Shown here: one piece after another, positions 536-40,033 of the stretch | Layout: the number at the start of each line of letters is the position of its first letter | Position numbering within the stretch: position 1 is the stretch's first letter | DNA from: Oscillospiraceae bacterium | Lineage (GTDB): Bacteria; Bacillota; Clostridia; Oscillospirales; Ruminococcaceae | Reading direction: 5' to 3' | Assembly: GCA_017848115.1 (NCBI GenBank) | Contig: JAGAKZ010000021.1 | Location: forward strand, 1-64,000 | DNA length: 64,000 bases | Made by a program: the position numbers and the translations under genes | The notes under the pieces: generated by a model | Seen by the model: the letters and a program-made list of their open reading frames with translations, nothing else | What the model was told of the DNA's origin: nothing | Databases searched by the model: none

Positions 536-1852
536 ATGAAAATAACATTCATAAGACTTAACATGTTTGAAAATATAAGTTCTGATGCAATGAAGCCGGT
601 TCTTTTCGGAATAATAAAAAATATTACTCCCAAAAAACATCAAATAGATTTTATAGACGAACGTGCGGAGAAGCTTCCTGAAAAGATAGATTCTGACATT
701 ATTGCTTTCTCTGTTGAAACCTTTACTGCCAAAAGAGCATACATACTCGCAAAAAAATACAAAACCCCGAAAAATATCATCGTCATGGGAGGTTTTCACG
801 CCTGCGTGATGAGTGATGAAATGCTGAATTTTGCTGATTCGGTGCTTATAGGCGATGCAGAAGATACGTGGAATGATTTTCTTGAAGACTGTGAAAAAAG
901 AACGCCTTTGAAAAAATATTTTTCCAAGGAAAATCTTCCTCTTGAAAGTTTTCATGAGGACACTTCTGTTTACAAACATAAATACTATGGGGTTGGCGTA
1001 TATCAGATATCAAGAGGCTGTAAGTTCAACTGTGATTTTTGTTCTATAAAAACTATGTACAAATGTGTCAGAAGAAAATCAGCAGATATGATAGCAGCAG
1101 AACTTGCGACTTCACGTGAAAAAATAATTTTTTTTGTAGACGATAATCTTTTTTACGATAAACAAAGTGCCATGCAGCTTTTCAAAAAAATTGCACCGCT
1201 TAAAAAGAAATGGGCTTGTCAGATAAGTATGGATGCCGCACAGGACGATGAGATACTTACCCAAATGAAAAATTCAGGCTGTTTTCTTGTCCTCATCGGC
1301 TTTGAAAGTCTGAATAAGGAAAGTCTCGGTCAGATGCATAAGTCAGCAAATATAAAAGCAGACTATGAAGCAACTATCAAACGCATATACAAGCACAGAA
1401 TGCTTATCTACGGAACTTTTGTTCTGGGGTGTGACGGAGATAACAGCGATGTTTTTGAACGAACACTTGATTTTGCAGTCAGAAACGGTATAGCTGTCAC
1501 AAACTTCAATCCGCTCATTCCTATGCCCGGAACAAGCGTATACGAAAAATTCAGTAAAGAAAACAGACTCCTGTATAAAAAATGGTGGATATCAGACAAA
1601 TACCATTACGGAGATACCGCTTTTATCCCCAAAAATATGACTCCCGATGAGCTTCATGACGGATGTCTCAGGATCAGAACCGAATTCTATTCTTTTAGTT
1701 GTATAATAAAAAGACTTTTTTCCAACCGTTCAAATTTTAGTCCCACTAATCTTTTGATTTTCCTTCTTGTAAACTTTATCTCAAGACGGGAAATACACAG
1801 AAAACAGGGACAGCTTCTTGGAGGGATCCTTAATGAAACTGACGTTGATTAA
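536..1852 (+). CDS. B12-binding-type radical SAM protein (1 of 4)
   Basis: A 438-residue enzyme of the cobalamin-binding radical SAM class. The N-terminal Rossmann-like half carries the VETFTAKRAY block and a GGFHA segment typical of the family's B12-binding domain. The central half has the CX3CX2C cluster motif (RGCKFNCDFC) that binds the 4Fe-4S/SAM pair, then the usual GFES block. The start is ATG 536, after an AGAGGA ribosome site; upstream in-frame codons fall inside the tRNA terminator. It overlaps the next gene by 20 bases. This family includes methylases and ring-forming enzymes, so the reaction cannot be named. It is paralogous to the products at 1833, 5439 and 6786. Confidence 0.85.
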   Translation: MKITFIRLNMFENISSDAMKPVLFGIIKNITPKKHQIDFIDERAEKLPEKIDSDIIAFSVETFTAKRAYILAKKYKTPKNIIVMGGFHACVMSDEMLNFADSVLIGDAEDTWNDFLEDCEKRTPLKKYFSKENLPLESFHEDTSVYKHKYYGVGVYQISRGCKFNCDFCSIKTMYKCVRRKSADMIAAELATSREKIIFFVDDNLFYDKQSAMQLFKKIAPLKKKWACQISMDAAQDDEILTQMKNSGCFLVLIGFESLNKESLGQMHKSANIKADYEATIKRIYKHRMLIYGTFVLGCDGDNSDVFERTLDFAVRNGIAVTNFNPLIPMPGTSVYEKFSKENRLLYKKWWISDKYHYGDTAFIPKNMTPDELHDGCLRIRTEFYSFSCIIKRLFSNRSNFSPTNLLIFLLVNFISRREIHRKQGQLLGGILNETDVD

Positions 1853-3179
1853 ACCAAATATAGGCAGACGCGAACACAGCCTTTATGTCGATGAAGCAAG
1901 AATGGAGCCTCTTGGGCTTGGAATACTTGCTGCACTCACACCTGAGGATATCGAGGTTGTTATGTATGATGACCGTATGGAACAGATACCATATGACGAA
2001 CCTACTGATATAGTAGCTATAACCGTTGAAACCTTTACCGCAAGAAGAGCGTATGAAATAAGTGACGAATACCGAAGAAGAGGTGTTGCAACAGTTATGG
2101 GAGGTATGCATGCAGTCCTGATTCCAGAAGAAGTTGCTGAACACTGTGACTGTGTTATATCAGGTGACGCAGAGCCTGTATGGGCGGATATGCTTGCAGA
2201 TTTCAGAAACGGCTGTCTGAAAAAACACTATATTCCCGTACAACCTGAATTTCCTCAGAAAAACATTATTGCAAGACGTGATATTTTTGAAGGTAAAGGA
2301 TACCTTCCTATAACGTTGTTACAGTTTTCAAGAGGATGCAGCCACAAGTGCAGTTTCTGCGCTTCATCAGTCTACTTCAAGGCACATCATTACTGCCGTC
2401 CTGTAGAAGACGTAGTAAAAGAAATAAAATCTCAGAAAAGAAAACTTTTGTTTTTTGTAGATGATAATATAGTATGCGACCGTAAAAAAGCAAAGGAACT
2501 TTTTAAGGCGCTTATCCCACTCAAAATAAAATGGGTAAGTCAGGGAAGTCTTGATATGCTCGAAGATGATGAACTTATGCGCCTCATGGTCAGAAGCGGA
2601 TGTCTGGGACTTGTAATAGGCTTTGAATCTATCACGCCTGACTGTATAAATGAAATGAAAAAATATACAAACAGGAAAGCTGCCGGAGACCTTTACAGTA
2701 CTGAAATAAAAAAACTACGAAAATGGGGTCTTCAGACATGGGCAGCTTTTACTGTAGGACACGACAGTGATACAATGGAAAGCATAAAAGCAACTTGCGA
2801 TTTTGCTATAAAAAACAAATTTACATTTGCAGCATTCAATATCCTTATGCCTTATCCCAACACCCCGTTGTACGAAAAAATGCAGAAAGAAGGACGTCTG
2901 CTTTATGACGGAAAATGGTGGCTCCATGAGGATTATAGATTCAACTATGCAAGTATAGTTCCGAAAAATATGACTCCTGATGAACTTACGGACATATCTT
3001 TCAGATGTCGCAGTCGTTTCAACAGTCCCTGGTCTATCTTTACAAGAGCTTTGGAATTGCATACAAATATGCGCACACCATACAGATTTGGGACATATCT
3101 GATATATAACCCACTTTTCAGAAAAGAGGTTTTCAAAAAACAGGGAATGAGATTCGGACTTGAGGAAAAGAAGGAGTGA
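1833..3179 (+). CDS. B12-binding-type radical SAM protein (2 of 4)
   Basis: 448 residues with the same layout as its upstream neighbour: an N-terminal B12-domain-like region with VETFTARRAY and GGMHA blocks, a radical SAM core with RGCSHKCSFC (CX3CX2C), and GFES. The C-terminal segment carrying the FNILMPYPNTPLYEK block is shared across three of the four paralogues. The start is ATG 1833, seven bases after GGAGGG; it sits inside the 3' end of the first gene, so translation is probably coupled. The presence of four diverged copies in one operon suggests successive steps on one molecule rather than redundancy (inference). Confidence 0.85.
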   Translation: MKLTLIKPNIGRREHSLYVDEARMEPLGLGILAALTPEDIEVVMYDDRMEQIPYDEPTDIVAITVETFTARRAYEISDEYRRRGVATVMGGMHAVLIPEEVAEHCDCVISGDAEPVWADMLADFRNGCLKKHYIPVQPEFPQKNIIARRDIFEGKGYLPITLLQFSRGCSHKCSFCASSVYFKAHHYCRPVEDVVKEIKSQKRKLLFFVDDNIVCDRKKAKELFKALIPLKIKWVSQGSLDMLEDDELMRLMVRSGCLGLVIGFESITPDCINEMKKYTNRKAAGDLYSTEIKKLRKWGLQTWAAFTVGHDSDTMESIKATCDFAIKNKFTFAAFNILMPYPNTPLYEKMQKEGRLLYDGKWWLHEDYRFNYASIVPKNMTPDELTDISFRCRSRFNSPWSIFTRALELHTNMRTPYRFGTYLIYNPLFRKEVFKKQGMRFGLEEKKE

Positions 3180-3183
3180 TATT

Positions 3184-3882
3184 ATGCTTAAAGGAACTAT
3201 AAAACCTGTAGACAAATTCAGTCAGGAAGAAATAGCTTCTATGTACAGTCTTATGGCACAGTTTTATGATAATACTGATGAGGATGTTTTCAGACGTGAT
3301 TTTTATGACAAGGACTATTGTCTGGTGCTACAGGACGAAAATGCTGTCATTGTCGGCTTTACTACCCAAAAAGTAATAGCTGTTGATGTGGAAGGACGGA
3401 CAGTACACGGAGTTTTTTCGGGAGACACAATAATTCATAAGGATCACTGGGGCGAAACAGAGCTTTTCAGAGTGTGGGCAAGATTCTGGTTTGACTATGC
3501 TGAAAAGTACGATGAATTTTACTGGTTCCTTATCTGTAAAGGCTATAAAACGTACCGCATTCTGCCGGTGTTCTGGGAACACTTTTATCCTGATTACCGT
3601 AGAGAAACACCTTCCTACGAAAAAAAGATAATCGATGCCTATGCAAGTGCTTTGTATCCTGACGAATATAATCCCGAAAGTGGTGTTATAGAATACAAGT
3701 CACAAAAGGACCGGCTAAAGTCAGGCGTTTCTGATATCGGAGAACATGAAATGAAAAACAAGGATATTGCATTTTTCTGCAATGCAAATCCAGGACATAC
3801 AGTCGGAAATGATATAGCGTGTCTTGCCCGTATAAACAGAACATATATGAAAAAACGTACTGAAAGGCTGTTGTTCGGATGA
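3184..3882 (+). CDS. GNAT-like acyltransferase, uncharacterised
   Basis: 232 residues. The first 150 residues have the strand-helix pattern of a GNAT fold: an IVGFTTQKV strand pair, a central GVFSGDTIIHKDH segment where GNAT proteins carry the acyl-CoA loop, then FYWFLICKGYKTYRILP. The canonical R/Q-x-x-G-x-G/A loop is not clear, so the assignment is structural and tentative. It starts at ATG 3184 after AAGGAG, four bases downstream of the second radical SAM gene. Its last four bases overlap the GH3-like gene (ATGA). The context suggests it loads or transfers an acyl group for the cluster product. It could also be a diverged GNAT with a lost active site. Confidence 0.55.
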   Translation: MLKGTIKPVDKFSQEEIASMYSLMAQFYDNTDEDVFRRDFYDKDYCLVLQDENAVIVGFTTQKVIAVDVEGRTVHGVFSGDTIIHKDHWGETELFRVWARFWFDYAEKYDEFYWFLICKGYKTYRILPVFWEHFYPDYRRETPSYEKKIIDAYASALYPDEYNPESGVIEYKSQKDRLKSGVSDIGEHEMKNKDIAFFCNANPGHTVGNDIACLARINRTYMKKRTERLLFG

Positions 3883-5396
3883 GCCTTGTATGCAGATTTT
3901 TAAACGGAATATGTCAGTTACTTTATTATAGTGAATACAGACGCTTTTTAGCATCATGTGATATAAAAAAAGTACAGGAAAAATACCTCACAAAGCTTCT
4001 TGACAAAAACAAGAACACTGTTTACGGAAAAAAATGTAATTTTGAAAATATAAAAAACTATGAGGATTTTGTAAAAAATGTTCCTCTTACAGTATACGAA
4101 GACTACGAGCCATATATAGAAGCTATGGCAAACGGTGAGAAAAATATTCTGACGTCACAAAAACTGAAACTTTTTGAGCTGACGAGCGGTTCATCGGGTG
4201 GAAAGAAAATGATACCATATACAAAATCACTAAGTCATGAGTTTTTACGTGGAATAAAGCCATGGTTATATGATATCGGAAAATCAATACGCAAATCATC
4301 ATACGGGAAAAGCTACTGGTCAATAACACCTGTCACTGAAGGGAAAAGTTTTACAAAAGGCGGTATTTCCGTTGGTTTTGAAGAGGACTCAGAATATTTC
4401 GGAGCAATCGCAAGAACTGTTATGAATAAGTTGTTTGCTGTTGATTCAAGTGTAAAATTTTCTGAAGATATGCAGGATTTTTATTTTAAAACAGCTTCAC
4501 AGCTTATATGCTGTCGTGAACTTTCACTTATATCAGTATGGAATCCTACATTTCTCACTATCCTATGTGATTTTATAAGTGAAAATACTCAAAAGCTCTC
4601 GGCTTTATTGCCTGTTAAACACAGAGAAACCTTTCTTTTGGCGGTATCTGAAAAACGATTCGACAAAGTATTTCCAAATCTTGCAGTGATAAGCTGCTGG
4701 GCAGACGGAAGTGCCGCAGATTATGTACCCCAGCTTCAAAGACTGTTTCCGGGAGTCTTGATCCAGCCTAAAGGAATCCTTGCTACAGAGTGTTTTATAT
4801 CTTTTCCGCTTTGCGGAGAAGACGGAAGCAGGCTTAGCGTTTATTCTCATTTTTTTGAGTTTCGCAGTATGACAGACGGACAGATAGTAACTGCTGACAG
4901 ACTTACCGAAGGCGAATATGAAATCATAGTAACTACAGGCGGAGGTTTTTACAGATACTGTATAGGTGATATAATCAAAGTTTTAAAAGTTTTCAAAGAC
5001 AGACCTCCGCTTATAAGATTTTTAAGAAGAAACGGTATATCAGTCGATATGTTCGGCGAAAAGCTTACTGAAGATTTTGTACGCAATGTATGTATAAAAC
5101 TCGGTATTTCAGAAAATTTCTGTATGCTTGCTCCTGATAATAACCGTTATTGTCTGTATACAGATTCAGAAAAAATATCCGGGGATGAACTTGATACTAT
5201 GTTATGTGAAAGCTATCACTATAACTACTGTCGCAAACTCGGACAGCTTAATAAGGCAGAAGTAAAAGTAGTCAGCAAAGACCCTGCAAAAACCTATATA
5301 GAACGGCTCACATCAGAAGGCATGAGGGCCGGAAATATAAAGCCATCATATCTCAGCGCAAAAAAAGACTGGGAAAAATACTTTGAATTACAGTAA
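3879..5396 (+). CDS. GH3-like acyl-adenylating amide synthetase
   Basis: 505 residues resembling the GH3 (auxin-responsive promoter) family of adenylate-forming enzymes. Visible signatures are the P-loop-like TSGSSGGKKMIPYTK around residues 101-115, the GGGFYRYCIGDII block and FGEKLTEDF, which match the ATP/acyl-adenylate-binding blocks of the family. Plant GH3 enzymes activate a carboxylic acid as acyl-AMP and join it to an amino acid. Bacterial members are mostly uncharacterised and occur in biosynthetic clusters. The start overlaps the acyltransferase stop by four bases. Here it probably activates a carboxylate made or modified by the radical SAM enzymes and forms an amide; substrates are unknown. 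Confidence 0.8.
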   Translation: MSLVCRFLNGICQLLYYSEYRRFLASCDIKKVQEKYLTKLLDKNKNTVYGKKCNFENIKNYEDFVKNVPLTVYEDYEPYIEAMANGEKNILTSQKLKLFELTSGSSGGKKMIPYTKSLSHEFLRGIKPWLYDIGKSIRKSSYGKSYWSITPVTEGKSFTKGGISVGFEEDSEYFGAIARTVMNKLFAVDSSVKFSEDMQDFYFKTASQLICCRELSLISVWNPTFLTILCDFISENTQKLSALLPVKHRETFLLAVSEKRFDKVFPNLAVISCWADGSAADYVPQLQRLFPGVLIQPKGILATECFISFPLCGEDGSRLSVYSHFFEFRSMTDGQIVTADRLTEGEYEIIVTTGGGFYRYCIGDIIKVLKVFKDRPPLIRFLRRNGISVDMFGEKLTEDFVRNVCIKLGISENFCMLAPDNNRYCLYTDSEKISGDELDTMLCESYHYNYCRKLGQLNKAEVKVVSKDPAKTYIERLTSEGMRAGNIKPSYLSAKKDWEKYFELQ

Positions 5397-5438
5397 ATAT
5401 AAAAAAACGATATATTACTGAAAGGGATGAATGGAAAG

Positions 5439-6773
5439 ATGATAAAAATAGCTTTGCTTGCACCGGCAGGCGCCATGCACAGATACTCGGGAAGCTTCGG
5501 AAAATCACTGCACTATGCACCGCTTACACTTACCACTCTTGCAGCACTTGTTCCTGAAGATGTAGACGCTGAGGTTGTTATTTATGATGAGACCGCAGAA
5601 AAAATTCCGCTTGATATAGACGCAGAACTTATTGGTATAACCTGTATTACAGGTACTGCTCCCCGATGCTATGCATATGCAGATTATTTCCGTAAAAAAG
5701 GAAAGACAGTCATGCTTGGAGGCGTTCACCCGTCAATGCTTCCAAATGAAGCAGCAGAACACGCAGATGTTGTGTTTACAGGATTTTCTGAACAGACATT
5801 TCCACAGTTTATCCGTGATTATGCCAAGGGCAGTTATCAGAAGTTCTACCATCAGAACAGTGACTACACTATAGAGGGAAAACCTGTTCCCCGAAGAGAA
5901 CTCCTGAAGTCCAAACGGTATATCACTACAAAAACCGTAGAAGCTATACGTGGTTGCTGTCATACATGTACTTTCTGTGCGTATCCGGCTGCGTTTGGCA
6001 AGCACGTCTGGAAACGTCCTGTAAAAGAAGTAGTAGCGGAGATAGAGGCACTTGATACAAAACATGTATTGTTTCCTGATGTAAATCTTATTACGGACAG
6101 GTCCTATGCAATAGAGCTTTTTACTGCTCTTATCCCTCTTAAAGTAATATGGCTCGGACTTGTTACATCTTCTGTCGGAATCGATGATGAACTTATGACC
6201 GTATTCAGAAAAAGCGGATGTCGCGGACTTCTGATAGGTTTTGAATCAATAACACAGGAGTCACAAAAATATATTCACAAGGGAGTCAATAAGGTAGACA
6301 GTTATGTTACACTTATGGAAAAGCTCCATGACAACGGCATTCTTGTCCAGGGTTGCTTTGCATTTGGCGGCGATGAAGAAGATGAAAGCGTTTTTGACCG
6401 TACTGTTGAAATGATAATAAAAGCAAAGATAGACCTCCCGCGTTATTCTATACTTACACCTTTTCCGCAGACCGGTTACTACAAACAGCTGGAAGCTGAA
6501 GGACGAATAACAGAACATAACTGGGCTATGTATGATGTACAGCACTGTGTTTTCAAGCCTAAACTTATGACAGCCAAACAGCTTGAAGAAGGAACAGACC
6601 GTGCGTGGAGAACTACATATTCAAATATAAACATTCTTAAAAGACTTGCACCGTTTAATCACAGTCCTTGGCTTTCGCTTCCTCTTAACCTTGGCTACAA
6701 GGGATATGCTGACAAATGGCACAAGTTCACAAGAGATGTTATGTGTGATAATTCGGATATACCTGTACTATAA
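5439..6773 (+). CDS. B12-binding-type radical SAM protein (3 of 4)
   Basis: 444 residues, the most divergent of the four paralogues: the VETFTA block is replaced by ITCITGTAPRCY, though the GGVHPSMLPNE segment and RGCCHTCTFC (CX3CX2C) remain, with GFES at mid-protein. The start could be ATG 5427 or ATG 5439. I chose 5439 because AAAGGG (5421-5426) abuts 5427 with no spacing, and the paralogues begin with a strand right after the first residue. It lies 42 bases after the GH3-like gene and 12 bases before the fourth radical SAM gene. The divergence implies a different step or substrate. Confidence 0.85.
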   Translation: MIKIALLAPAGAMHRYSGSFGKSLHYAPLTLTTLAALVPEDVDAEVVIYDETAEKIPLDIDAELIGITCITGTAPRCYAYADYFRKKGKTVMLGGVHPSMLPNEAAEHADVVFTGFSEQTFPQFIRDYAKGSYQKFYHQNSDYTIEGKPVPRRELLKSKRYITTKTVEAIRGCCHTCTFCAYPAAFGKHVWKRPVKEVVAEIEALDTKHVLFPDVNLITDRSYAIELFTALIPLKVIWLGLVTSSVGIDDELMTVFRKSGCRGLLIGFESITQESQKYIHKGVNKVDSYVTLMEKLHDNGILVQGCFAFGGDEEDESVFDRTVEMIIKAKIDLPRYSILTPFPQTGYYKQLEAEGRITEHNWAMYDVQHCVFKPKLMTAKQLEEGTDRAWRTTYSNINILKRLAPFNHSPWLSLPLNLGYKGYADKWHKFTRDVMCDNSDIPVL

Positions 6774-6785
6774 GAGGGCTTTAAC

Positions 6786-8117
6786 ATGAAAATAAGTTTT
6801 ATTCTTCCGGCAATAGGAAAAAAACCGGGCAAAAAATATATAGGCACATGGAAAATGGAGCCTCTGACTATAGCAGTGCTTAAAGCACTGACACCAGAAG
6901 GCGTGGAAACAGAACTTTTTGATGACCGTATAGAACTTATAGACTATGATACAAAAACAGATCTTGTTTCTATTACAGTTGAAACCTATACAGCAAAGAG
7001 AAGCTACCAAATAGCAGAAAAATTCAGAGCAAGAGGAATACCTGTAATAATGGGTGGCTATCATGTAACGTTGTGCCCTGAAGAAGCGACAGAATACTGT
7101 GATGCAGTAATAATCGGAAATGCCGAAACAGTATGGAATGATGTTATAAAAGACGCTGAAAATAAAACACTAAAAAAAATATATCATGGTGGAGTAGGAG
7201 AATATACTGTCCGTCCTGACAAGAGCATTTTTAAGGGAAAAAAATATCTTCCTGTATCTCTCGTGGAAACAGGACGCGGATGCTGTCACAGCTGTGAATT
7301 CTGCTCTATATCCAAGTTTTACTGCAGTAAATATTATTGTCGTGAACACAGTCTTGTTGTTGATGATATAAAAAATTCTCCTCACAAATATACTTTCCTT
7401 GTTGATGACAATCTTGTTGCTGATCACAATAATGCTATGAGTCTTTTTGAAGATATAACACCACTCGGAATAAAATGGGCCGGTCAGGGAACTCTGTCCA
7501 TGGCAAAGAACGAAAAACTTCTTAAAGCTATGAAAAAAAGTGGATGTGAGATAATTCTGATAGGTTTTGAAAGTCTTAACAAAGAAAACCTTGAACAGAT
7601 GAACAAATCCTTCAACTACGCTATGGGAGAACGTGATGAACTTGTAAAGCGTATTCATGATGCAGGTATAGGGATCTATGCAACGTTTGTTTTTGGTTAT
7701 GATAATGACAATGAAAAAACAGTAAACGATGCTCTTGAGTTTGCAAAAAAACATAATTTTTATACAGCAGCGTTCAATCACCTTCTACCTTTTCCAAATA
7801 CAGCACTGTATGACAGACTAAAAGCTGACAACAGACTGATATACGACAAATGGTGGCTGGAAGACGGATACAACTATGGCGAACTTGCTTTTCATCCCAA
7901 ACTTGTAACCGCAGAAAAAATGAGTATGCTTTGCCGTGATGCAAGAAAAGCGTTTTCTTCGCCTCGTACAGTTATAAACAGAGGCTTTGCATCTCTTGGC
8001 AGAACAAGTCCGCTTATGTGGGGGCTTTTTTGGGGAATGAACCTGCGTCTTGGCGAAGAAATTGACCAGAAAATGAACGTCCCGATCGGAGAAAACCTTG
8101 ATGAACTTCCAAAGTAA
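6786..8117 (+). CDS. B12-binding-type radical SAM protein (4 of 4)
   Basis: 443 residues, close in layout to copies 1 and 2: VETYTAKRSY and GGYHVTLCPEE in the N-terminal B12-type domain, RGCCHSCEFC (CX3CX2C) in the radical SAM core, GFESLNKENL, and the shared FNHLLPFPNTALYDR block. GAGGG lies eight bases before ATG 6786. The 3' end overlaps the next gene by 17 bases. The family uses SAM and cobalamin for methyl transfer or radical rearrangements on unactivated carbon; the actual chemistry is unknown. Confidence 0.85.
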   Translation: MKISFILPAIGKKPGKKYIGTWKMEPLTIAVLKALTPEGVETELFDDRIELIDYDTKTDLVSITVETYTAKRSYQIAEKFRARGIPVIMGGYHVTLCPEEATEYCDAVIIGNAETVWNDVIKDAENKTLKKIYHGGVGEYTVRPDKSIFKGKKYLPVSLVETGRGCCHSCEFCSISKFYCSKYYCREHSLVVDDIKNSPHKYTFLVDDNLVADHNNAMSLFEDITPLGIKWAGQGTLSMAKNEKLLKAMKKSGCEIILIGFESLNKENLEQMNKSFNYAMGERDELVKRIHDAGIGIYATFVFGYDNDNEKTVNDALEFAKKHNFYTAAFNHLLPFPNTALYDRLKADNRLIYDKWWLEDGYNYGELAFHPKLVTAEKMSMLCRDARKAFSSPRTVINRGFASLGRTSPLMWGLFWGMNLRLGEEIDQKMNVPIGENLDELPK

Positions 8118-9132
8118 CAGATACACCCTAAGATTTGCCGACAGCAATGATGACAGCGGAATAAAAGAAATATTTCTCAGCGGAAGCTTTGACGGTGGGA
8201 TGAACATACAGTATCTTCGTGACCCCTCTCCATATGACTCCTTCTTAGCGGACGGAGACAAAGCAAATATCATCGTAGCTGTTGATAATAAAATTGACAG
8301 AATTATTGCGCTCGGAGGCGCTGTTATCAGACACGAATATGTAAACGGCGTAAGAGAAAAATGTGCATATATGACCGGTCTCAAAGTTCATCCTGATTAT
8401 CAAAGAAAAGTAACATTTATAGCAAAAGCATACAGCCTTCTGAAAAATTCAATATCAGACTGCCGTTATGTATACACCACGGTTCTTGACGATAACAAAG
8501 ACGCGGTTGCACTATTTGAAAAAAAACATAAAAATATGCCAGAATACAGATATCTCGGACATTACACGACATACTGCCTTCATGGCGGAAAAAAAATTCT
8601 TGAGCTTGAAAAAAACAACACTGACGGTTTTAATGACCTTATAGAAAAATATTTTTCAAAACAAAGTTTTGTTCCATGTGATCCTGACTACAGAGGTTTC
8701 GGAGAAAAAAATTTTTTTTGCTTAAGAGAAAACGGTAAAATCATTGCTTCATGCTTTGTAGGAAACCAACAGGCACTTAAACAATACAAAATGTGCGGAT
8801 ATAACGGCATTTACAGGATCTTGTCAAAATTTCCGACATCTCTTATAGGTTATCCGTCGTTTCCAAAACCCGACAGTATAATTAACCACGGCGTTATATC
8901 ATACCTGTACATAAAAGATAATGATAAAAAACTGTGTTCTGATTTTTTGAGAACAGTTGCATCAGAAGCAGGTTTTTCTCTTCTGATATGGGGCGGATTT
9001 GAAAACAATCCACTCTGCAAAGCTATGGACAAGATGAAGACTGTACACTACGGAAGCCGACTTTATTCTGTAGTATGGGATAAGTATGAAGAAATAAACG
9101 GAACTATAGGAGTAGAAGCGTCACTTCTGTAA
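8101..9132 (+). CDS. GNAT-type N-acetyltransferase, two-domain
   Basis: 343 residues. The N-terminal half is a GNAT domain: TLRFADSNDDSGIKEIF as the first strand and helix, MTGLKVHPDYQRKVTF in the position of the acetyl-CoA loop, then YVYTTVLDDNKDAVALFEKK, the usual last strand and helix. The acyl-CoA loop has lost the glycine pattern (QRKV instead of Q/R-G-x-G). The C-terminal half (residues 190-343) looks like a second, degenerate GNAT-like repeat. ATG 8101 is inside the preceding gene and GGAG sits nine bases upstream. It is the last gene before a strong terminator, so it closes the operon. Confidence 0.7.
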   Translation: MNFQSNRYTLRFADSNDDSGIKEIFLSGSFDGGMNIQYLRDPSPYDSFLADGDKANIIVAVDNKIDRIIALGGAVIRHEYVNGVREKCAYMTGLKVHPDYQRKVTFIAKAYSLLKNSISDCRYVYTTVLDDNKDAVALFEKKHKNMPEYRYLGHYTTYCLHGGKKILELEKNNTDGFNDLIEKYFSKQSFVPCDPDYRGFGEKNFFCLRENGKIIASCFVGNQQALKQYKMCGYNGIYRILSKFPTSLIGYPSFPKPDSIINHGVISYLYIKDNDKKLCSDFLRTVASEAGFSLLIWGGFENNPLCKAMDKMKTVHYGSRLYSVVWDKYEEINGTIGVEASLL

Positions 9133-9147
9133 TAATCTATACAAAAC

Positions 9148-9190
9148 AAAAAAGCGATACAGATTTTTCATGACTCTGTACCGCTTTTTT
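9148..9190. terminator. Bidirectional terminator between convergent operons
   Basis: AAAAAAGCG-TACAG pairs with CTGTA-CGCTTTTTT around an AT-rich loop, giving A and T tracts on both sides. It ends the radical SAM operon on the + strand and the LytTR operon on the minus strand. Confidence 0.85.
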
Positions 9191-9191
9191 A

Positions 9192-10229
9192 TTAATGTGC
9201 CAGTGTATTTCCGTTTTCATCGAGGATTGTATCTGGTTCTCGTTTCTGCGGGATATTTGCATCCGGTGTATAGGCATCAGTCATATATGCATCACCATTC
9301 TGAAGATTATGATGATAAATTTCTCTTCTGTGCCTGTAACCATATTCATCGACACCTTCTGCAATTATCTTAATACTGCTGTCACTGTCTGCTTTATAAC
9401 GCTTTTCAGTATCGACCCTTCCATCTGATACATCTATGGTTTCAACTACCTTATTATCGATCATAAAAATAAGCTTATTATCTGACATTCCGGATTTACC
9501 GCAATGTCCGCTGACACTTCCTGTGCCATAAGAAAATTTTATACTAAAATATTCACCATCAAACTTTTGTTTGTGCACTCCAAACGATCCGCTTAAATAT
9601 GTAAGACACGTTTCATAAAATGCATCGTAATCATCAGAAACTTTTTCCGTACTTTTTACTCCACCGTCTTTGACAATAACACTTATCTGACCACATGAAC
9701 TATCAAACAACGGTAAATTTTTCACTGCTGTGTATACATCATCATCTCTTGTCAGAGCTATTGTATCCTCTCCGATACGAACTGAAATACTTGTGTTTTC
9801 AGTAACTGTTTTTGGGATACATGTAATTTTTGTTTCAACGGTATTATCTTCAGTATTGATACCTTTAAAGTGCAGATCAAACTCATTTAAAATAGAATTT
9901 CCTTCTTCTGCTTCGCTTAATAATATCTCTACCTGGCGTTCAAGTCTGTTTATACGGGATATAAGATTATTATTTGTAGTTTTGATGTTGGAATCTATTA
10001 TTGAAAGTTTTGCCATTATCAAAATAAAAATAATTATAGTACCAACAAGCATCAACGTTTTTCCGACATTTTCTGCTGAAACCATTGAAATATGTGTCAT
10101 GCTTTCATTACGTTTCAGCTTTTTGTTAATTTTCTTCTGATACACATTTGAATAAACCAGATACCCTATAAAAAATAAACCGATAATACCTATCATAATA
10201 TAGCCTAACTGTATTTTCATCGCACTCAT
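9192..10229 (-). CDS. Membrane protein with coiled coil and external beta domain
   Basis: 345 residues, not a family I recognise. Two transmembrane helices are visible (about residues 9-28 and 57-77), with a basic linker between them. A coiled coil rich in N, L and E follows (about 80-115). The rest (about 120-345) is a strand-rich region with only three cysteines that should face outward and looks like two Ig-like modules. AGGAGG lies five bases before ATG 10229. It is ten bases downstream of a LytTR regulator gene and so is co-transcribed. LytTR genes of this size are often paired with a membrane partner that restrains them; that role is an inference here. Confidence 0.65.
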   Translation of the reverse strand: MSAMKIQLGYIMIGIIGLFFIGYLVYSNVYQKKINKKLKRNESMTHISMVSAENVGKTLMLVGTIIIFILIMAKLSIIDSNIKTTNNNLISRINRLERQVEILLSEAEEGNSILNEFDLHFKGINTEDNTVETKITCIPKTVTENTSISVRIGEDTIALTRDDDVYTAVKNLPLFDSSCGQISVIVKDGGVKSTEKVSDDYDAFYETCLTYLSGSFGVHKQKFDGEYFSIKFSYGTGSVSGHCGKSGMSDNKLIFMIDNKVVETIDVSDGRVDTEKRYKADSDSSIKIIAEGVDEYGYRHRREIYHHNLQNGDAYMTDAYTPDANIPQKREPDTILDENGNTLAH

Positions 10230-10239
10230 AAATGCCTCC

Positions 10240-10692
10240 TTATATTCCGAAAAAATCTTTAAACGAACTGTAGTAACTTCGTGTTACATCAACTAAAGAA
10301 CCATCAGACATTGTAAGAATGAACTTCATTGATATTGACGGTTTTATTCTTTTAACGTGCAGTCTTGCTATGATCGCGCAGTTACTGACACGGATAAATT
10401 TTGTATTATCAAGAATTGATGTCAGCTGATACAGCCGGTCCAATGCATAATAACATTCGCCGTCTGTGCTATGTATCACTACACTGTGACCAAAACTTTC
10501 GATAAATATTATCTCTTCCGATTTAAGTCTTAGTTTTTCCCCATTTTTGTTTTTCACCGCTATATATGAGGTAAATTTATCTTTTTGCGTAATAATAAAT
10601 TCCGCCTCATCATCAATAACAAATCCTGCTGATAATAATTTCTTCTCCAGTTCCGAATAATATTCATCACTTACGTTCAGACGTATTTTCAT
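10240..10692 (-). CDS. LytTR-domain DNA-binding regulator
   Basis: 150 residues. The C-terminal 95 residues form a LytTR DNA-binding domain: LRLKSEEIIFIESFGHSVVIH, then LDRLYQLTSIL and FIRVSNCAIIARLHVKRIKP. There is no receiver domain, only a short N-terminal region, as in stand-alone LytTR proteins. ATG 10692 follows GGGAGG by seven bases; longer in-frame starts upstream lack a ribosome site. It is the first gene of a two-gene operon with the membrane protein at 9192. It probably regulates its own operon. Confidence 0.85.
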   Translation of the reverse strand: MKIRLNVSDEYYSELEKKLLSAGFVIDDEAEFIITQKDKFTSYIAVKNKNGEKLRLKSEEIIFIESFGHSVVIHSTDGECYYALDRLYQLTSILDNTKFIRVSNCAIIARLHVKRIKPSISMKFILTMSDGSLVDVTRSYYSSFKDFFGI

Positions 10693-10848: not shown

Positions 10849-11772
10849 CTATTGATTATCTGTATCTGCCGGATTTACATGAACCATGATATGTTTTACT
10901 TTCAGGAACTCCCGTTCAATATCATCATGTACCATTTCCGCTATATCGTGTGCTTTTTTTAGAGTATATGACGGGTCTGCCTGAATTTCTACATCCACAT
11001 AAATCTTATTTCCGAAAATACGTGTATGCAACAGATCTATTCCCATTACATCCTCATTTCTCATGACACAATCATGAAGCTGTTTTTCGGTTTCTTCATC
11101 GCAGGAGCGATCTACCATTTTATCCATTGCGTCCTTAAAAATATCAAAGGCTGCTTTTACGATAAACACAAAGATCACAAGACTTGCAATTGAATCCATT
11201 ATCGGAAAACCAAGTCTTGCACCTCCGATACCTACCAGAGCACCTACTGACGAAAATGCATCCGAACGATGATGCCATGCATCTGCCATCAATGCACTCG
11301 AATCAATCTTCTTTGCATAGTATCGTGTATACCAGTACATTCCTTCCTTACTGACAATCGACACAATAGCTGCTACCAAAGCAAGTATTCCCGGCACCTG
11401 CAGGTCATTATAATGACCGCCCAGAATGTTTTTAACTGCACTGATACCAATACCCAGACCTGTAAACAGAAGAACCATAGACAAAATAATAGCTGCCACA
11501 CATTCTAGTCTTTCATGGCCGTAAGGATGCTCCTTATCAGGTTTCTTTGATGCCAGCTTAATGCCGATAATAACCACAAATGTACTGAACACATCAGAAG
11601 CTGAATGGATCGCATCACTTATCATAGAACTTGAATGCGCCACGATACCTGCCACAAGCTTAAATGCAGACAGAATCACATTTCCGATGATGGTGATAAC
11701 CGACACCTTATTTGCAATCTTCTGAAACTCTGTCTTTGCGACCATTTCCTTTGTTATTTCGCTTTTTTCCAT
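10849..11772 (-). CDS. Cation diffusion facilitator metal exporter
   Basis: 307 residues, the usual CDF length. Six membrane helices are followed by a C-terminal cytoplasmic ferredoxin-like domain (about 215-300) that ends in a histidine-containing strand. Helix 2 carries SDAIHSASD and helix 5 carries ADAWHHRSDA, the two metal-site motifs. The family exports divalent metals such as Zn, Mn, Fe, Co or Ni in exchange for protons. GGGAGG lies before ATG 11772. The leader upstream folds as a probable NiCo-type riboswitch (11864-11976), which points to Co, Ni or Fe export. The symbol is left blank because the metal is unproven. Confidence 0.9.
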   Translation of the reverse strand: MEKSEITKEMVAKTEFQKIANKVSVITIIGNVILSAFKLVAGIVAHSSSMISDAIHSASDVFSTFVVIIGIKLASKKPDKEHPYGHERLECVAAIILSMVLLFTGLGIGISAVKNILGGHYNDLQVPGILALVAAIVSIVSKEGMYWYTRYYAKKIDSSALMADAWHHRSDAFSSVGALVGIGGARLGFPIMDSIASLVIFVFIVKAAFDIFKDAMDKMVDRSCDEETEKQLHDCVMRNEDVMGIDLLHTRIFGNKIYVDVEIQADPSYTLKKAHDIAEMVHDDIEREFLKVKHIMVHVNPADTDNQ

Positions 11773-11863: not shown

Positions 11864-11976
11864 AAAAAAACACCCACGAATCAGTATAGCAACACTGTCC
11901 CGCGGATGATAATTCCACTGTCACTCATGTGACCCGACTCCATAACATAATGTCACGGTCTGCTCAGTTTGTACTG
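11864..11976 (-). promoter_or_regulatory. Probable NiCo (czcD)-type metal riboswitch with terminator
   Basis: The leader of the CDF exporter folds on the minus strand as a multi-helix junction. P1 is CAGTA (11972-11976) with TACTG (11882-11886); inside are hairpins GTCAC/GTGAC and GTGGA/TCCGC and a further stem, joined by linkers containing GACAG twice. A mutually exclusive terminator pairs ATCCGC-GGG-CAGT (from 11907) with ACTG-TTC-GTGGGT (to 11872), followed by seven T (11864-11870). This shape, the repeated GACAG linkers and the CDF gene downstream fit the NiCo/czcD riboswitch, which has been reported to sense Co(II), Ni(II) or Fe(II). The class call is from memory of its features. The rest of the 11773-12078 gap is AT-rich. 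Confidence 0.6.
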
Positions 11977-12007
11977 TAGATTTGTATGCAGTGCAAAGAG
12001 TATATAT

Positions 12008-33404: not shown

Positions 33405-34763
33405 ATGAACTCCTTTGAAGAACTTTTTGATCGTGTCAAAAAGTATTGTGCAGATTCAGGCGGTGTACAGAAAACAGCTTACGACCTCTGGATCAAACCG
33501 ATTGAAACAAGAGGATTTGACGGAAAACAAGTAATTCTGTTCTTTCCGACTGAGTTTCAAAAAGATACTTTTTTGAACAACTATGAATCATTATTCAAAC
33601 AGGCTTTCAAAGCAGTAACAGGAATAGACGTTGATATTCTGGTCACAATACAGGATACGGAAAATCCCGTACCTAAAGTGGATATGGACGAACTTGAAGA
33701 AAAGCATCAGCAACTTGAAAAAAGTTTTGAAGGTGCTGAATACGACTACACCTTTGATACATTTATAGTCGGAAAATCAAACGAATTTGCATATGCAGCA
33801 TGTACTGCAGTTGCTAAGGACAACAACGGAAGTACATACAATCCACTTTTTATACACGGTCCTTCCGGACTTGGAAAAACACATCTGTTGACGGCTATAT
33901 CAAATGAAATGAAAAGCAAACGCCCTGATATAAATATCATATATGTAACAGGTGAAACATTCTCAAATGAACTTATCGACGCCATCAAAATGAAAAAAGA
34001 AACAACAACTTTCCACGAAAAGTACAGAAATGCAGATGTACTGCTCGTAGACGATGTTCAGTTCATAGCAGGCAAGGAAAGTACACAGGAAGAGTTTTTC
34101 CACACATTCAACGAACTCCACAAAGACGGCAGACAGATCGTACTTACATCAGATAAACCGCCAAAGGATATCCAAACACTCGAAGACAGAATCAGAACAA
34201 GATTTGAATGGGGACTCATTGCCGACATTTCAACACCTGATTTTGAAACAAGAATCGCAATCATCAGAAGAAAAGCAGAACTTTTGAATCTCAATCTTCC
34301 TGATGAAGTTGCAGAATTTATAGCAAACAGATTAAAAACAAATATCAGACAGCTCGAAGGTGCTGTTAAAAAACTAAAAGCGTTAAAACATTTGGCAGGC
34401 AGTCCGCCGACAATGGCAATGGCGCAAAGTGTAATACGTGATATATTAAACGACGATCAGCCGATACCGATAACTGTTGAAAAAATTATTTGCGAAGTAG
34501 CAAACGTATACTCAGTAACACCAGAAGACCTAAGATCAAACAAACGTTCTGCCCAGATCTCCAACGCACGAAAAATAGCGATCTATGTTGTAAGAGAAAT
34601 AACACAGATGTCGCTTGTAGCCATAGGTCTCGAGTTTGGAGGAAGAGATCATTCTACTATAGTATATTCTATAAATAGTGTAGAACACAACCTCAAAAAA
34701 GATCCGGGACTCAGAGAAATGGTAAATGATATCATAAAAAATATACGAGACAAAGGCAAATAA
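33405..34763 (+). CDS. dnaA: Chromosomal replication initiator DnaA
   Basis: 452 residues. The N-terminal domain (1-80) is followed by a linker and an AAA+ core with Walker A GPSGLGKTH (about 151-159) and Walker B VLLVDDVQF, then the initiator-specific region. Domain IV has the DNA-binding signature GGRDHSTIVYS near the C-terminus. It binds DnaA boxes, melts the origin and also represses its own gene in many bacteria. GGGAGG (33386-33391) precedes ATG 33405 with a slightly long spacing. It opens the rightward replication operon. Confidence 0.97.
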   Translation: MNSFEELFDRVKKYCADSGGVQKTAYDLWIKPIETRGFDGKQVILFFPTEFQKDTFLNNYESLFKQAFKAVTGIDVDILVTIQDTENPVPKVDMDELEEKHQQLEKSFEGAEYDYTFDTFIVGKSNEFAYAACTAVAKDNNGSTYNPLFIHGPSGLGKTHLLTAISNEMKSKRPDINIIYVTGETFSNELIDAIKMKKETTTFHEKYRNADVLLVDDVQFIAGKESTQEEFFHTFNELHKDGRQIVLTSDKPPKDIQTLEDRIRTRFEWGLIADISTPDFETRIAIIRRKAELLNLNLPDEVAEFIANRLKTNIRQLEGAVKKLKALKHLAGSPPTMAMAQSVIRDILNDDQPIPITVEKIICEVANVYSVTPEDLRSNKRSAQISNARKIAIYVVREITQMSLVAIGLEFGGRDHSTIVYSINSVEHNLKKDPGLREMVNDIIKNIRDKGK

Positions 34764-35230
34764 ACACAAACAAACAACTTCTCCACAAAGTTTTCAACAA
34801 CATGTTGAAAGTGATGTTAAAAAACGATCCGCTCAAAACTCTGCCGTTAACCGACATTCCGCAATTCTATTCACAATAAACAAACACTATATCAACACAT
34901 TGTTGTTAGTTAACATGAGCGTCATTTCAACAAAGAAGTTAACGCAAAAAAGTTTTCAATAAAATATTCAACAAACTTTTAAATTCAACTCCACAAAAAA
35001 TCAACATCTAAACAAAGCAAAAAGTTTTCAAAAAAAGTAAACACACTTAAAACATCTCTGTGTTGAATTATCAAAAAAGATAAAACCGAAGTTCAGAAGC
35101 TGTTTCAACAAATAAACACGCCCTACTACTACGACTGATAAAATATAATTATTTTATTTTTATTATAAGTCGCAAGGCAGTTAACCTCTGACGGTTAACT
35201 GTTCAAACATTTCTCAGAAAGGTTTATTAT
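34764..35230. other. oriC: Candidate replication origin (oriC) between dnaA and dnaN
   Basis: A 467-base AT-rich gap. Single-mismatch DnaA boxes are TTCTCCACA (34779-34787) and CTATTCACA (34867-34875). A recurrent variant with core TTTCAACA appears at 34791, 34803 (reverse), 34924 and about 35102, with TTCAACA relatives elsewhere. GTTAAC occurs at 34846, 34909, 34938, 35180 and 35194. Clostridial and Bacillus origins lie in this spacer. Genes face left before it and right after it. The exact unwinding element is not defined. Confidence 0.75.
35178..35201. promoter_or_regulatory. Inverted repeat of GTTAAC sites before dnaN
   Basis: CAGTTAACC (35178-35186) and its exact complement GGTTAACTG (35193-35201) flank six bases, 30 bases before the dnaN start. 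It resembles a two-half-site operator, or a stem in the mRNA leader. Confidence 0.55.
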
Positions 35231-36391
35231 ATGAACAATATAAATTTTAACTGTAACAGAACCAAACTTCACGAAGCAGTGAACAATGTATCCAAAGCTG
35301 TACCATCAAAATCAAATATGGCAGCTTTGGAAGGAATAAAACTTTCACTTAGCAACAACACTCTGGAGTTAACAGGTTACGATCTTGAACTTGGAATAAA
35401 AACCACTCTGGAGGTTAACAGCTCTGACAAGGGTGAACTAATTGTAAATGCTCGTCTCTTTAACGAAATACTAAGAAAAATGTCTTCTGATGAAGTTACA
35501 ATAAATATAGATGAAAAATTAAACATAACGATCAGCGGAAATGCAACTACTTACAATATATCAGCAATACCTGCTACCGAATATCCTGATTTCCCATCTA
35601 TAACAAATGAAGAACCAATTGAAATTCCACAATATATTCTTCGTAATATGATCGATCATACCAAACATGCAGTTGCAACAAACGAGAATAAACCAATTCT
35701 TACCGGTCAATTATTTGATATAGAAGACGGATTATTCAGAATGGTTGCTATTGACGGTTTCAGACTAGCCGTACGAAATGAACGAATAACGGCAAGCGAC
35801 AAACTTAACTTTGTTGTTCCGTCAAAAGCTCTCAGTGAAATTTCAAAAATCCTTTCTAAAAACGATCCGATACAATCTAACCCGGAAAATCAGGAATCAA
35901 AAGCAGACAAGCCTGAACTTTTATGTAAGATATATAAGGATTTAAAACACATAACATTTGAAATTTCCGGATATTATGTTGTTTCCAGATTACTTACAGG
36001 TGAATTTCATAATTATAAAGCAAGTATTCCGGAAAATTTTACAACAGAAGTTGTAATAAAAACAAAAGAATTTACCGATAGCATAGACAGATGTTCACTT
36101 CTCATAAACGAACAAACCAAATGTCCTATAAAATGCACTTTTGAGAATAACTCTCTGAAAGTTAACTGTAAAACATCAATCGGAAAAGTCGATGACGTGA
36201 TAGAGGCAGAGGTTAACGGCGACCCGATAGAAATAGGCCTTAACAGCAGATTTTTACTTGATGCCCTCAAAGCTTGCGATACAGATAAGATAAGAATACA
36301 ACTTCAGGCACCTAACAGACCTGTAAAAATTTTACCGATGATAGGTGACAGTTTTGTTTTCTTACTTATGCCTATACAGCTCAAAAACTAA
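35231..36391 (+). CDS. dnaN: DNA polymerase III sliding clamp (beta)
   Basis: 386 residues, close to the usual 370-380. The three clamp domains are recognisable by GIKLSLSNNTLELTGYDLE in domain 1, the central RMVAIDGFRLAVR block and the C-terminal PIQLKN, the usual hydrophobic-pocket end (PMR/QL). It encircles DNA and tethers polymerase III and other enzymes. AGAAAGG precedes ATG 35231. The N-terminal region includes a small insertion near residues 215-230 (NPENQESKADKP). Confidence 0.95.
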   Translation: MNNINFNCNRTKLHEAVNNVSKAVPSKSNMAALEGIKLSLSNNTLELTGYDLELGIKTTLEVNSSDKGELIVNARLFNEILRKMSSDEVTINIDEKLNITISGNATTYNISAIPATEYPDFPSITNEEPIEIPQYILRNMIDHTKHAVATNENKPILTGQLFDIEDGLFRMVAIDGFRLAVRNERITASDKLNFVVPSKALSEISKILSKNDPIQSNPENQESKADKPELLCKIYKDLKHITFEISGYYVVSRLLTGEFHNYKASIPENFTTEVVIKTKEFTDSIDRCSLLINEQTKCPIKCTFENNSLKVNCKTSIGKVDDVIEAEVNGDPIEIGLNSRFLLDALKACDTDKIRIQLQAPNRPVKILPMIGDSFVFLLMPIQLKN

Positions 36392-36408
36392 ATTAAGGAC
36401 GGTCTTAT

Positions 36409-36627
36409 ATGGAAAAAAATATTATAAACATTAAGATAAAAACAGAGTTTATAAAGCTTGACTCACTTCTGAAGTTTGCTGGTGTAACTGAAACAGGCGG
36501 CGAAGCAAAGGAAGTGGTTCAGGGTGGAGAAGTTTCATACAACGGTGAAATCTGTACTATGAGAGGAAAAAAAGTTCGTCCCGGTGATGTTGTTGAATAT
36601 GATGGAAATATCATAAACGTTGAATAA
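36409..36627 (+). CDS. yaaA: S4-domain RNA-binding protein YaaA
   Basis: 72 residues forming a single S4 RNA-binding module: [23 protein letters not shown], then GEVSYNGEI and [15 protein letters not shown]. This YlmH/YaaA-type small S4 protein is found between dnaN and recF in most Firmicutes. AAGGAC lies before ATG 36409, and the next gene starts three bases after its stop, so they are coupled. Its RNA target is not established. Confidence 0.93.
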
Positions 36628-36630
36628 TCT

Positions 36631-37749
36631 ATGTATATAGAAAAAATTTACATTGATGGTTTTAAAAATCTGAAAAAAATCGATTTTTCCCCTGCTGAAT
36701 CATTCAACATAATATACGGTCAGAATGCTCAGGGAAAAACCAATCTTCTTGAAGCGTTGTGGATAGCAACAGGCTGTCGGAGTTTCAGAGGATCAAAAGA
36801 AAAAGATTATGTATCATTTGATTCTGATTTTTTTGAGATAAATATAATTTTTCGTGACACTCAGCGTCAGCAAAAAATTGAATACCGTATGGAAAGAAAA
36901 AATCTGAAAAACAAACAGATATTTTTAAACGGTGTCAAACAAAATAATGGAAACGGATTATTTGAAAATTTCAAATGTATTGCATTTCTGCCCGGTGATA
37001 TTGAACTGATAAAGGGTATGCCTGACAGAAGACGAAGCTACATAGATCTTTGCTACTCTCAGTTAAAACCTCGTTCTATGAATTATATAAGAAAATACAA
37101 TCAACTTATTTTACAGAGAAATGCGGTTATAAAAAATATAATACTTGGAAAAGACTGTGTGGAAAGTCTTGATATATGGGACAGACAACTTGCTGTTGCC
37201 GGTTCATATATTTCGTTTATGAGAAATCAATACATTTTGAACCTTGATAAATGCAGTGGAAAATTGTATGAAAAAATAGCAGGCGGTACAGAAAAACTCA
37301 GAATAGAATATAATTCGAATGTTTATCCATCTGATTATAAATATCCTTCCTCTCCCGATAATGAAATGTCAGAAATATATTATAACAGGCTTAAAAAAAG
37401 CATAAACGATGATATACGCCTCGGATACACTCATGCGGGTGTTAACCGTGATGATATATCACTTAAAATAAACGGTCTGAGTGTAAAAGACTATGGTTCT
37501 CAGGGACAGCAGAAAAGTACAGCACTTGTTATGCGATTGTCTCAGGCTCAGATATACAAAGATATGAAAAAAGAAGCTCCGGTTATACTTCTTGATGATG
37601 TTATGGGTGAGCTTGATGAAAACAGACAGAAGCTTGTATGCAGCATAATTGCGGATATGCAGGTATTTGTTACCACCTGTAATCACAGAGCTATTATTCA
37701 CAGATGTGAAAATATTTTTGAAATGCGTGACGGCAAGCTAAATATCTGA
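36631..37749 (+). CDS. recF: DNA repair and gap-filling protein RecF
   Basis: 372 residues, normal length. Walker A is YGQNAQGKTNLLEAL (about 30-44), the ABC signature is in the YGSQGQQKSTALVM block (about 287-300) and Walker B is PVILLDDVMGELDENR (about 315-330). It binds gapped DNA and, with RecO and RecR, loads RecA. The third gene of the dnaN operon, three bases after yaaA. Confidence 0.95.
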   Translation: MYIEKIYIDGFKNLKKIDFSPAESFNIIYGQNAQGKTNLLEALWIATGCRSFRGSKEKDYVSFDSDFFEINIIFRDTQRQQKIEYRMERKNLKNKQIFLNGVKQNNGNGLFENFKCIAFLPGDIELIKGMPDRRRSYIDLCYSQLKPRSMNYIRKYNQLILQRNAVIKNIILGKDCVESLDIWDRQLAVAGSYISFMRNQYILNLDKCSGKLYEKIAGGTEKLRIEYNSNVYPSDYKYPSSPDNEMSEIYYNRLKKSINDDIRLGYTHAGVNRDDISLKINGLSVKDYGSQGQQKSTALVMRLSQAQIYKDMKKEAPVILLDDVMGELDENRQKLVCSIIADMQVFVTTCNHRAIIHRCENIFEMRDGKLNI

Positions 37750-37769
37750 AAGATATCGGAGGCGTGAAA

Positions 37770-38027: not shown

Positions 38028-38044
38028 AAAATAAACTCATGTAA

Positions 38045-40033
<1,989 letters not shown>

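Follow-up and report, generated by a model that had tools for sequence, protein, structure and literature searches.

A putative acyl-amide gene cassette with cobalamin-type radical SAM enzymes in Bacillota and on a Citrobacter plasmid

Enzymes of the GH3 family adenylate a carboxylate and form an amide, as stated for the plant enzymes and shown for OlsH in the accessible part of PMC12493201; according to the same part of that source, OlsH makes N-acyl ornithine in the OlsH/OlsI ornithine lipid pathway of Singulisphaera acidiphila. Among cobalamin-type radical S-adenosylmethionine (SAM) enzymes, BchE carries out an anaerobic six-electron oxidation (PMC13142503, accessible part), and the corresponding step is performed in other organisms by AcsF, an oxygen-dependent diiron cyclase (PMC7319587, accessible part). 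Here we analyze an operon at positions 536-9132 of a 64,000-nucleotide stretch of contig JAGAKZ010000021.1 from an Oscillospiraceae bacterium (this whole stretch is denoted the window), in which seven forward-strand open reading frames (ORFs) form one tight run and encode, in this order, rS1, rS2, GN1, GH3, rS3, rS4 and GN2: four radical SAM proteins, a GH3-family protein and two smaller candidate acyltransferases. In our judgement, there is an even chance that this operon is a transferable acyl-amide cassette, in which a GN1-GH3-GN2 core, with a probably lipid-like product, is combined with tailoring by radical SAM enzymes in anaerobes and by oxygenases in some aerobes. We found no paper on such a GN1-GH3-GN2/radical SAM cluster in the open-access literature; most of the subscription literature was outside the search.

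The GH3-family acyl-acid amido synthetase (505 amino acids (aa), 3879-5396, + strand) matches PF03321, PF23571 and PF23572 with 166.2, 48.9 and 25.0 bits, each above the gathering scores (each >23.6). An earlier note on this DNA had singled out the ATP-binding residues of this protein as a point on which its proposal depended; three nucleotide-binding motifs, TSGSSGGKK, LATE and GFYRYCIGD, are recognizable by comparison with those in the accessible part of PMC12493201, the second with T where OlsH and the plant GH3s have S. The sole NCBIfam match is to OlsH (NF052613), at 57.5 against a cut-off of 620, which is below membership, and 11 of 12 cassette GH3s match this model at E<=0.001. In the GH3 tree, the 15 cassette GH3s are all united in a single clade (100/99) that excludes the 11 other GH3s; two rows of this tree were flagged as long, and L040 was left out because it is partial (L numbers denote individual loci). 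The window protein is a predicted ATP-dependent amide-forming enzyme. The cassette resembles the OlsH/OlsI system in its predicted GH3-family, ATP-dependent amide synthesis and in the lipid amide that we propose as its product; unlike that system, it has no alpha/beta hydrolase domain, the domain of the OlsI partner, among its seven proteins, and it includes GNAT-type proteins and four radical SAM proteins.

The other two putative core proteins differ in how clearly they can be classified. GN2 (343 aa, 8101-9132, + strand) contains a GNAT domain, scoring 32.8 against PF00583 (gathering score 20.7), followed by an extra C-terminal region in which no repeat of the N-terminal half is detectable; six of ten aligned GN2s match PF00583 at E<=1. 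GN1 (232 aa, 3184-3882, + strand), the marker of the cassette core, is a conserved protein of no named family, possibly with a GNAT fold. Neither Pfam (at E<=0.1) nor NCBIfam (at E<=0.01) yielded a match, and none of 12 members has a GNAT match, with three families reached at chance level by one member each (best E 0.03). The GN1 profile aligns with the N-terminal half of GN2 (P=5e-4, probability 30%), and GN1 of Citrobacter reaches PF00583 at E=0.04, below the cut-off. These comparisons hint only weakly at a GNAT acyltransferase, so that, of the two GNAT-like proteins listed in the earlier note, GN2 stands and GN1 is a weak candidate. The top match of GN1 among solved structures, the Duffy binding protein (E 5e-4), was discounted, being composed of two stretches with E of 0.75 and 4.9 alone.

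The radical SAM proteins rS1 (438 aa, 536-1852), rS2 (448 aa, 1833-3179), rS3 (444 aa, 5439-6773) and rS4 (443 aa, 6786-8117), all on the + strand, score above the Pfam gathering score for the radical SAM domain PF04055. The B12-binding domain PF02310 exceeds its gathering score only in rS2 and rS4; rS3 falls just short (31.6 vs 32.1) and rS1 is weak (21.2), whereas nine of nine members of the rS1 group match PF02310 at E<=0.001. The description of all four as B12-type radical SAM proteins thus holds in full for the radical SAM domain and for two proteins with regard to the B12 domain; for rS1, rS2 and rS4, the cobalamin-type assignment draws on Pfam, NCBIfam, the CX3CX2C motif and the tree. 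The motif, reported as intact, occurs in each of the 56 radical SAM rows inspected, which include 12 single relatives discussed below. All NCBIfam scores are under the family cut-offs, the best being 97.9/577.6 for HpnJ (TIGR03471), 78.6/481.35 for BchE (TIGR02026), 90.5/600 for PhpK (TIGR04479) and 73.0/360 for TIGR04072 (lipid biosynthesis B12-binding/radical SAM protein). HpnJ and TIGR04072 are among the best-scoring models for the cassette enzymes, which, with scores of 86-98 vs 578 and 50-73 vs 360, are not members of either family. The parallel with BchE/AcsF lies in the use of a cobalamin-type radical SAM enzyme by anaerobes where aerobes use an oxygen-dependent metalloenzyme; the cassette differs from it in BchE scores of 74-79 vs 481, in having several enzymes and in having no known tetrapyrrole substrate. 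A defense system was also considered and rejected: the one candidate model from PADLOC, for rS1 and rS2, was weak.

Relatives of the operon contain a fifth radical SAM protein, rS0, of which the earlier account had no trace. In a tree of 56 radical SAM proteins, for which the tool flags long branches that meet, rS1, rS2, rS4 and rS0 each fall on one side of a branch, and so does rS3 except for the row from L081, which lies beside rS0 (93/83). Orthology by position accordingly holds with exceptions; the Citrobacter proteins stand outside the tree and were assigned by BLAST. One clade unites rS1, rS2 and rS4 (100/99) and another rS3 and rS0 (100/99), in agreement with the earlier view of rS3 as the diverged copy; support for the rS4 group is modest (83/59). 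When the host genome was searched with rS3 and with rS0, the sole matches at E<=0.001 were the operon's own four radical SAM proteins; rS0 is therefore missing from the assembled part.

The genomic context is conserved in several Bacillota lineages. GN1, GH3 and rS3 share one cluster at 12 of the 13 GN1-bearing Bacillota loci examined, rS3 being the radical SAM protein present at all 12; most of these loci were located with the GH3 or rS3 query, and the GN1 query in new genomes gave three of three in the class and none of one (G1067). The complete seven-gene order, for which synteny had been proposed as a check, is kept at five further loci: L002, from the same genus (protein by protein, 86-98% identity; L028 and L005, identical DNA, were not counted separately), L003, L004 and L029 (60-92%), all four found with the GH3 query, and L045. 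In L003, L004 and L029, rS0 lies directly upstream, L003 beginning inside this gene. The flanking genes differ, being SbcCD- and cysteine-synthase-like in L004 and TypA and polyphosphate-kinase-like in L029, as read from sequence. The class-level search with GN1 matched 4 of 391 genomes, including the host, and in each of them GH3 and rS3 follow GN1: rS1 rS2 GN1 GH3 rS3 rS4 GN2 in L045, GN1 GH3 rS3 rS4 GN2 in L046, and rS2 GN1 GH3 rS3 in L047. The phylum-level search with rS3 matched 28 of 398 genomes at E<=1e-100 (29 places, of which 18 besides that of the window were examined, in 17 regions); six genomes, the host included, scored >500 bits and 22 scored 340-406 bits. In five of these six, the host included, GN1 and GH3 belong to one cluster; besides that of the window, the orders are rS1 rS2 GN1 GH3 rS3 rS4 up to the contig end in L077, GN1 GH3 rS3 rS4 GN2 in L079, a different radical SAM gene followed by rS0, GN1, GH3 and rS3 up to the contig end in L078, and the rearranged rS3 rS4 GN2 GN1 GH3 in L081. 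The first gene of L078 (269-1540) encodes, by eye, a radical SAM-like protein with a cysteine-containing C-terminal part, unlike the B12-type set. Constant presence of rS3 is not the same as sequence conservation: rS2 is as close as rS3 to the window proteins, or closer, in L045 (74 vs 71%), L077 (75 vs 74%), L080 (60 vs 54%) and Citrobacter (59 vs 45%), so rS3 is not always the most conserved.

Proteobacteria were reached through plasmid records only. There were 79 such records with rS3, of which four were examined; six with GH3 (Citrobacter query), of which four were examined, leaving out a second Acinetobacter and Bernardetia; and 12 with GN1 (Burkholderia query), of which Burkholderia, Citrobacter, one of two Acinetobacter and three of eight Azospirillum records were examined. 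A 159-kb plasmid of Citrobacter portucalensis (L097), typed IncFIB/IncFII and MOBP, carries all eight components and is the clearest case of transfer. Its order is GN1, GH3, rS3, rS4, GN2, rS1, rS2, a PAP2 phosphatase and a small protein; the other strand carries a fatty acid desaturase and rS0, whose best match, at 49%, is its L078 counterpart; identities to the window proteins are 29% for GN1, 35% for GH3, 45% for rS3, 43% for rS4, 22% for GN2, 42% for rS1 and 59% for rS2. In Burkholderia arboris (L101), homologous GN1, GN2 and GH3 accompany a PF10118 protein, a Rieske oxygenase, a flavin monooxygenase and two genes for fatty acid desaturases; a further desaturase is fused to a PAP2-like part that scores 19.9 bits against a cut-off of 27.2. 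This locus differs from the window operon in that no match to any cassette radical SAM protein occurs in its 17.4 kb; the cluster is unannotated, and no description of it was found in the open-access literature. L101 belongs to a hardly annotated 3.5-Mb replicon, so that we drew the gene limits ourselves, and the start of GH3 is uncertain; the gene at 5067-5960 looked by eye like an alpha/beta hydrolase, a counterpart of OlsI, and was dropped as such, having no Pfam match. In Acinetobacter baumannii (L119; L115 is the same record), the order is HlyD, MFS, GN1, GH3, a gene for an outer-membrane efflux protein, GN2, SurE and LysR; the 24.7 kb covered contain no radical SAM match. The source record, of 4.1 Mb, is a plasmid according to PLSDB; NZ_CP104448.1 and NZ_CP064203.1 are four-megabase A. 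baumannii records filed there as plasmids, and at about 4 Mb such records are probably chromosomes. Scaled to a search space of 100,000 sequences, the profile E-values in L101 and L119, respectively, are approximately 1e-54 and 1e-48 for GN1, 1e-105 and 5e-83 for GH3, and 4e-19 and 4e-29 for GN2. Such relatives without radical SAM genes had been missing from the earlier account. Several other loci were rejected as cassettes: L102 (Acetoanaerobium), L098 (Paraclostridium) and L099 (Treponema) have radical SAM relatives without GN1, GN2 and GH3, and L114 (Streptomyces) has GH3 without GN1, GN2 and rS3. The Acetoanaerobium noterae locus (4670-10679) contains four consecutive radical SAM genes that are distant from the cassette enzymes.

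In general, the Bacillota, Citrobacter, Burkholderia and Acinetobacter clusters seem to have GN1-GH3-GN2 as their common core, with radical SAM enzymes or oxygenases as alternative additions; the relatives without radical SAM genes suggest that these three proteins, and not the radical enzymes, are the core. The proposal of several radical enzymes and a GH3 amide synthetase in one pathway is supported, the functions being predicted ones. The GH3 protein would adenylate a carboxylate with ATP and couple it to an amine, yielding an acyl amide, and GN2, perhaps with GN1, would add or move an acyl group. Several separate C-H functionalizations on the hydrocarbon part would fall to rS3 (together with its sister, rS0) and to the rS1/rS2/rS4 group, candidate steps being oxidation, desaturation, ring closure or methylation; the order of steps given here is likewise a proposal. 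In some aerobic relatives, the desaturases, Rieske oxygenase and flavin monooxygenase beside the core would replace the radical SAM set, an equivalence for which the BchE/AcsF pair offers a precedent. Desaturases beside the core suggest a hydrocarbon substrate, and the PAP2 and SurE phosphatases suggest a phosphorylated intermediate in some versions. As the earlier note had said, no polyketide synthase or nonribosomal peptide synthetase domain is present among the seven proteins, and no precursor gene of a ribosomally synthesized peptide fits between the operon genes, where gaps do not exceed 42 bases. A more far-reaching formulation, that this is an oxygen-independent route to lipid-like amides whose core accepts either a radical SAM or a desaturase/oxygenase set, and that a new class of acyl amides, heavily modified, thereby moves between phyla, including on an IncF-typed Citrobacter plasmid, is offered tentatively.

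Several observations weigh against the acyl-amide cassette. The L080 cluster (genome G883) has the order rS3 rS1 rS2 rS4 GN2 without GN1, and no GH3 is detectable in this genome in a search where nine of ten genomes matched; the radical SAM group and GN2 can thus exist in the absence of these two genes. In L100, GN1 is alone on an 11.7-kb contig of a genome that is 8% contaminated, with no GH3 match in a search that had no positive beside it. Azospirillum accounts for eight of the 12 GN1 plasmid records, none of which is among the six GH3 records, and at the three Azospirillum loci examined (L116, L117 and L118, on large plasmids) GN1, near position 12000, is without GH3; in L118, the only one of the three scanned with Pfam, it sits between genes for an NAD_binding_4 ('male sterility') reductase and a porin. 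The core can therefore be split, and GN1 has a wider occurrence of its own beyond the cassette. As the Acinetobacter locus has the core with neither tailoring set, the core can do without tailoring. The fold of GN1 is unconfirmed, and the Burkholderia and Acinetobacter GN2s are only 20-23% identical to other GN2s and either fall under the Pfam GNAT cut-off or have no GNAT match at all. The window operon contains neither a carrier protein gene nor a fatty acid gene, and the desaturase family also acts on non-lipids. Separately, the L080 variant (1273-9859) has as neighbors, read from sequence, a permease-like protein and one that carries a GGGTGR motif.

The same gene set could serve the same pathway with a different chemistry, the radical SAM proteins acting mainly as C-methyltransferases, which would attach methyl branches to one chain, and not as counterparts of the desaturases; we regard this as possible, if on balance doubtful. 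The top NCBIfam model of rS2 is the P-methyltransferase PhpK, and the cobalamin class as a whole consists mostly of methylases according to the accessible part of PMC13142503, so that oxidation would not be its default chemistry, a further point against the proposed oxidative tailoring. Against methylation, the top model of rS1, rS3 and rS4 is HpnJ, followed by BchE, an oxidative cyclase by name, and the Burkholderia core goes with oxygenases and no radical SAM match. HpnJ is not known to methylate. The NCBIfam scores are far under the family cut-offs, which makes the argument from these models a weak one.

A different kind of product is also conceivable. A small polar metabolite, such as an amino acid- or dipeptide-like antimetabolite, would have small blocks joined by GH3, acetylation by the GNATs for self-protection, and methylation or rearrangement by radical SAM relatives of PhpK, ArsL and AprD4. 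Models of these three enzymes are among the radical SAM matches, the best solved-structure match of rS3 is 6fd2, the apramycin biosynthetic oxidoreductase, weak structure matches of GN2 are to aminoglycoside and protein N-terminal acetyltransferases, and the Acinetobacter locus includes an HlyD/MFS/outer-membrane efflux set. An exporter, however, is not among the genes common to the Bacillota clusters, and a hydrocarbon substrate is indicated by the desaturase and PAP2 genes adjoining the core in Citrobacter and Burkholderia (in Burkholderia, the PAP2 part scores under the Pfam cut-off) and by the NAD_binding_4 reductase gene next to GN1 in Azospirillum. We consider such a product unlikely. 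That unrelated housekeeping paralogues and transferases are merely adjacent is very improbable: single rS3 relatives do stand by themselves in many genomes (in 22 of 398, the only match scores 340-406 bits; 12 of these were examined), but gene order is conserved in several lineages, the tree groups the proteins by position, and cassette genes are near none of these 12 single relatives.

The controls bear on the acyl-amide cassette both as a unit and as a mobile one. GN1, GN2 and GH3 are absent near all 12 single radical SAM relatives (of 22 such genomes) in the 11-20 kb fetched. In the family-level search with GH3, 14 of 297 genomes matched, 11 of which carry a distant GH3, and at these 11 loci the 3.4-13 kb fetched contain no GN1, GN2 or rS3. 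Three of five same-genus genomes, the host included in the five, are without the cassette GH3. Across 55 pairs from 11 genomes, TypA and rS3 identities are weakly tied (Spearman 0.26, p 0.054; the pairs are not independent and TypA is a single marker), with discordant pairs such as 62% TypA with 87% rS3 and 68% TypA with 56% rS3. Patchy occurrence, the plasmid copy and the weak tie between rS3 and the marker support a horizontally spread cassette. The earlier suggestion of transfer is upheld to this extent; its other part, the upstream tRNA-Ser gene as the integration site, is not: this arrangement is found in the window and in one congener, and the 20 repeat families shown, of 39, include no repeat of the tRNA end. 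ARAGORN found no tRNA-Ser in L003, L004 or L029, although the sequence of the first two stops a short way upstream of the operon. An empty-site comparison with the downstream transporter as query in four same-genus genomes gave two matches (60-64%). Phages had no rS3 match, and a 3.6-kb part of the Citrobacter cassette had no match at the DNA level in complete E. coli genomes.

The operon comprises seven genes, as in the title of the earlier note, and not six, as in its text. Three of the junctions are overlaps of 4-20 bases and the other three are gaps of 4, 42 and 12 bases, in line with the claim that the genes overlap or lie less than 50 bases apart and end at one terminator. The starts used are those of the earlier note or our own; the ORF list has longer forms starting with TTG at 479, 1818, 3160 and 8098 and with ATG at 5427. 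A terminator-like hairpin with a U tract (9148-9190, not assigned to a strand; folding of 9133-9192 gives -16.2 kcal/mol, z -7.0) closes the operon and is probably shared with the convergent gene at 9192-10229. Upstream, the tRNA-Ser(TGA) gene (355-442, + strand), which also precedes the operon in L002 and is probably outside the pathway, is separated from rS1 by an interval with another terminator-like hairpin (456-500, + strand; folding of 443-505 gives -21.4 kcal/mol, z -5.5). The best promoter-like site, TTGACA-17-TATAAT at 291-319, precedes the tRNA gene, so the operon would be driven by read-through or by an unrecognized promoter. The window has no B12 riboswitch at the Rfam gathering score.

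The host genome assembly has 3.34 Mb in 108 contigs and is 81% complete; the nearest named relatives found are metagenome-assembled genomes labelled Ruminococcus and Ruminiclostridium. With dnaA, gyrB and gyrA at 33405-43266 of the window and a sign change of the GC skew near 36 kb, the operon ends about 24 kb from the probable replication origin region. The genes for tRNA-Pro, tRNA-Thr and tRNA-Tyr followed by TypA occur both in the window (43478-45861) and in L029 (3460-5785); this block adjoins the cassette directly in the latter genome (G085) and lies 34 kb from it in the window. A NiCo riboswitch (11893-11977, - strand) precedes a cation-efflux-like gene (10849-11772, family read from sequence), and a GH16 glycoside hydrolase with a dockerin domain (53264-55327) suggests a cellulosome-type host.

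The analysis presented here describes a compact transferable cluster in which up to five cobalamin-type radical SAM enzymes accompany a candidate amide-forming core. Such a cluster makes the role of unassigned B12-type radical SAM enzymes of anaerobes testable on one product, and heterologous expression becomes a realistic prospect with the plasmid copy of Citrobacter, a genus near laboratory E. coli. Natural comparisons are provided by the clusters with oxygenases and by those with the bare core, and, if the products share a scaffold, the radical enzymes could be matched to oxygen-dependent steps.

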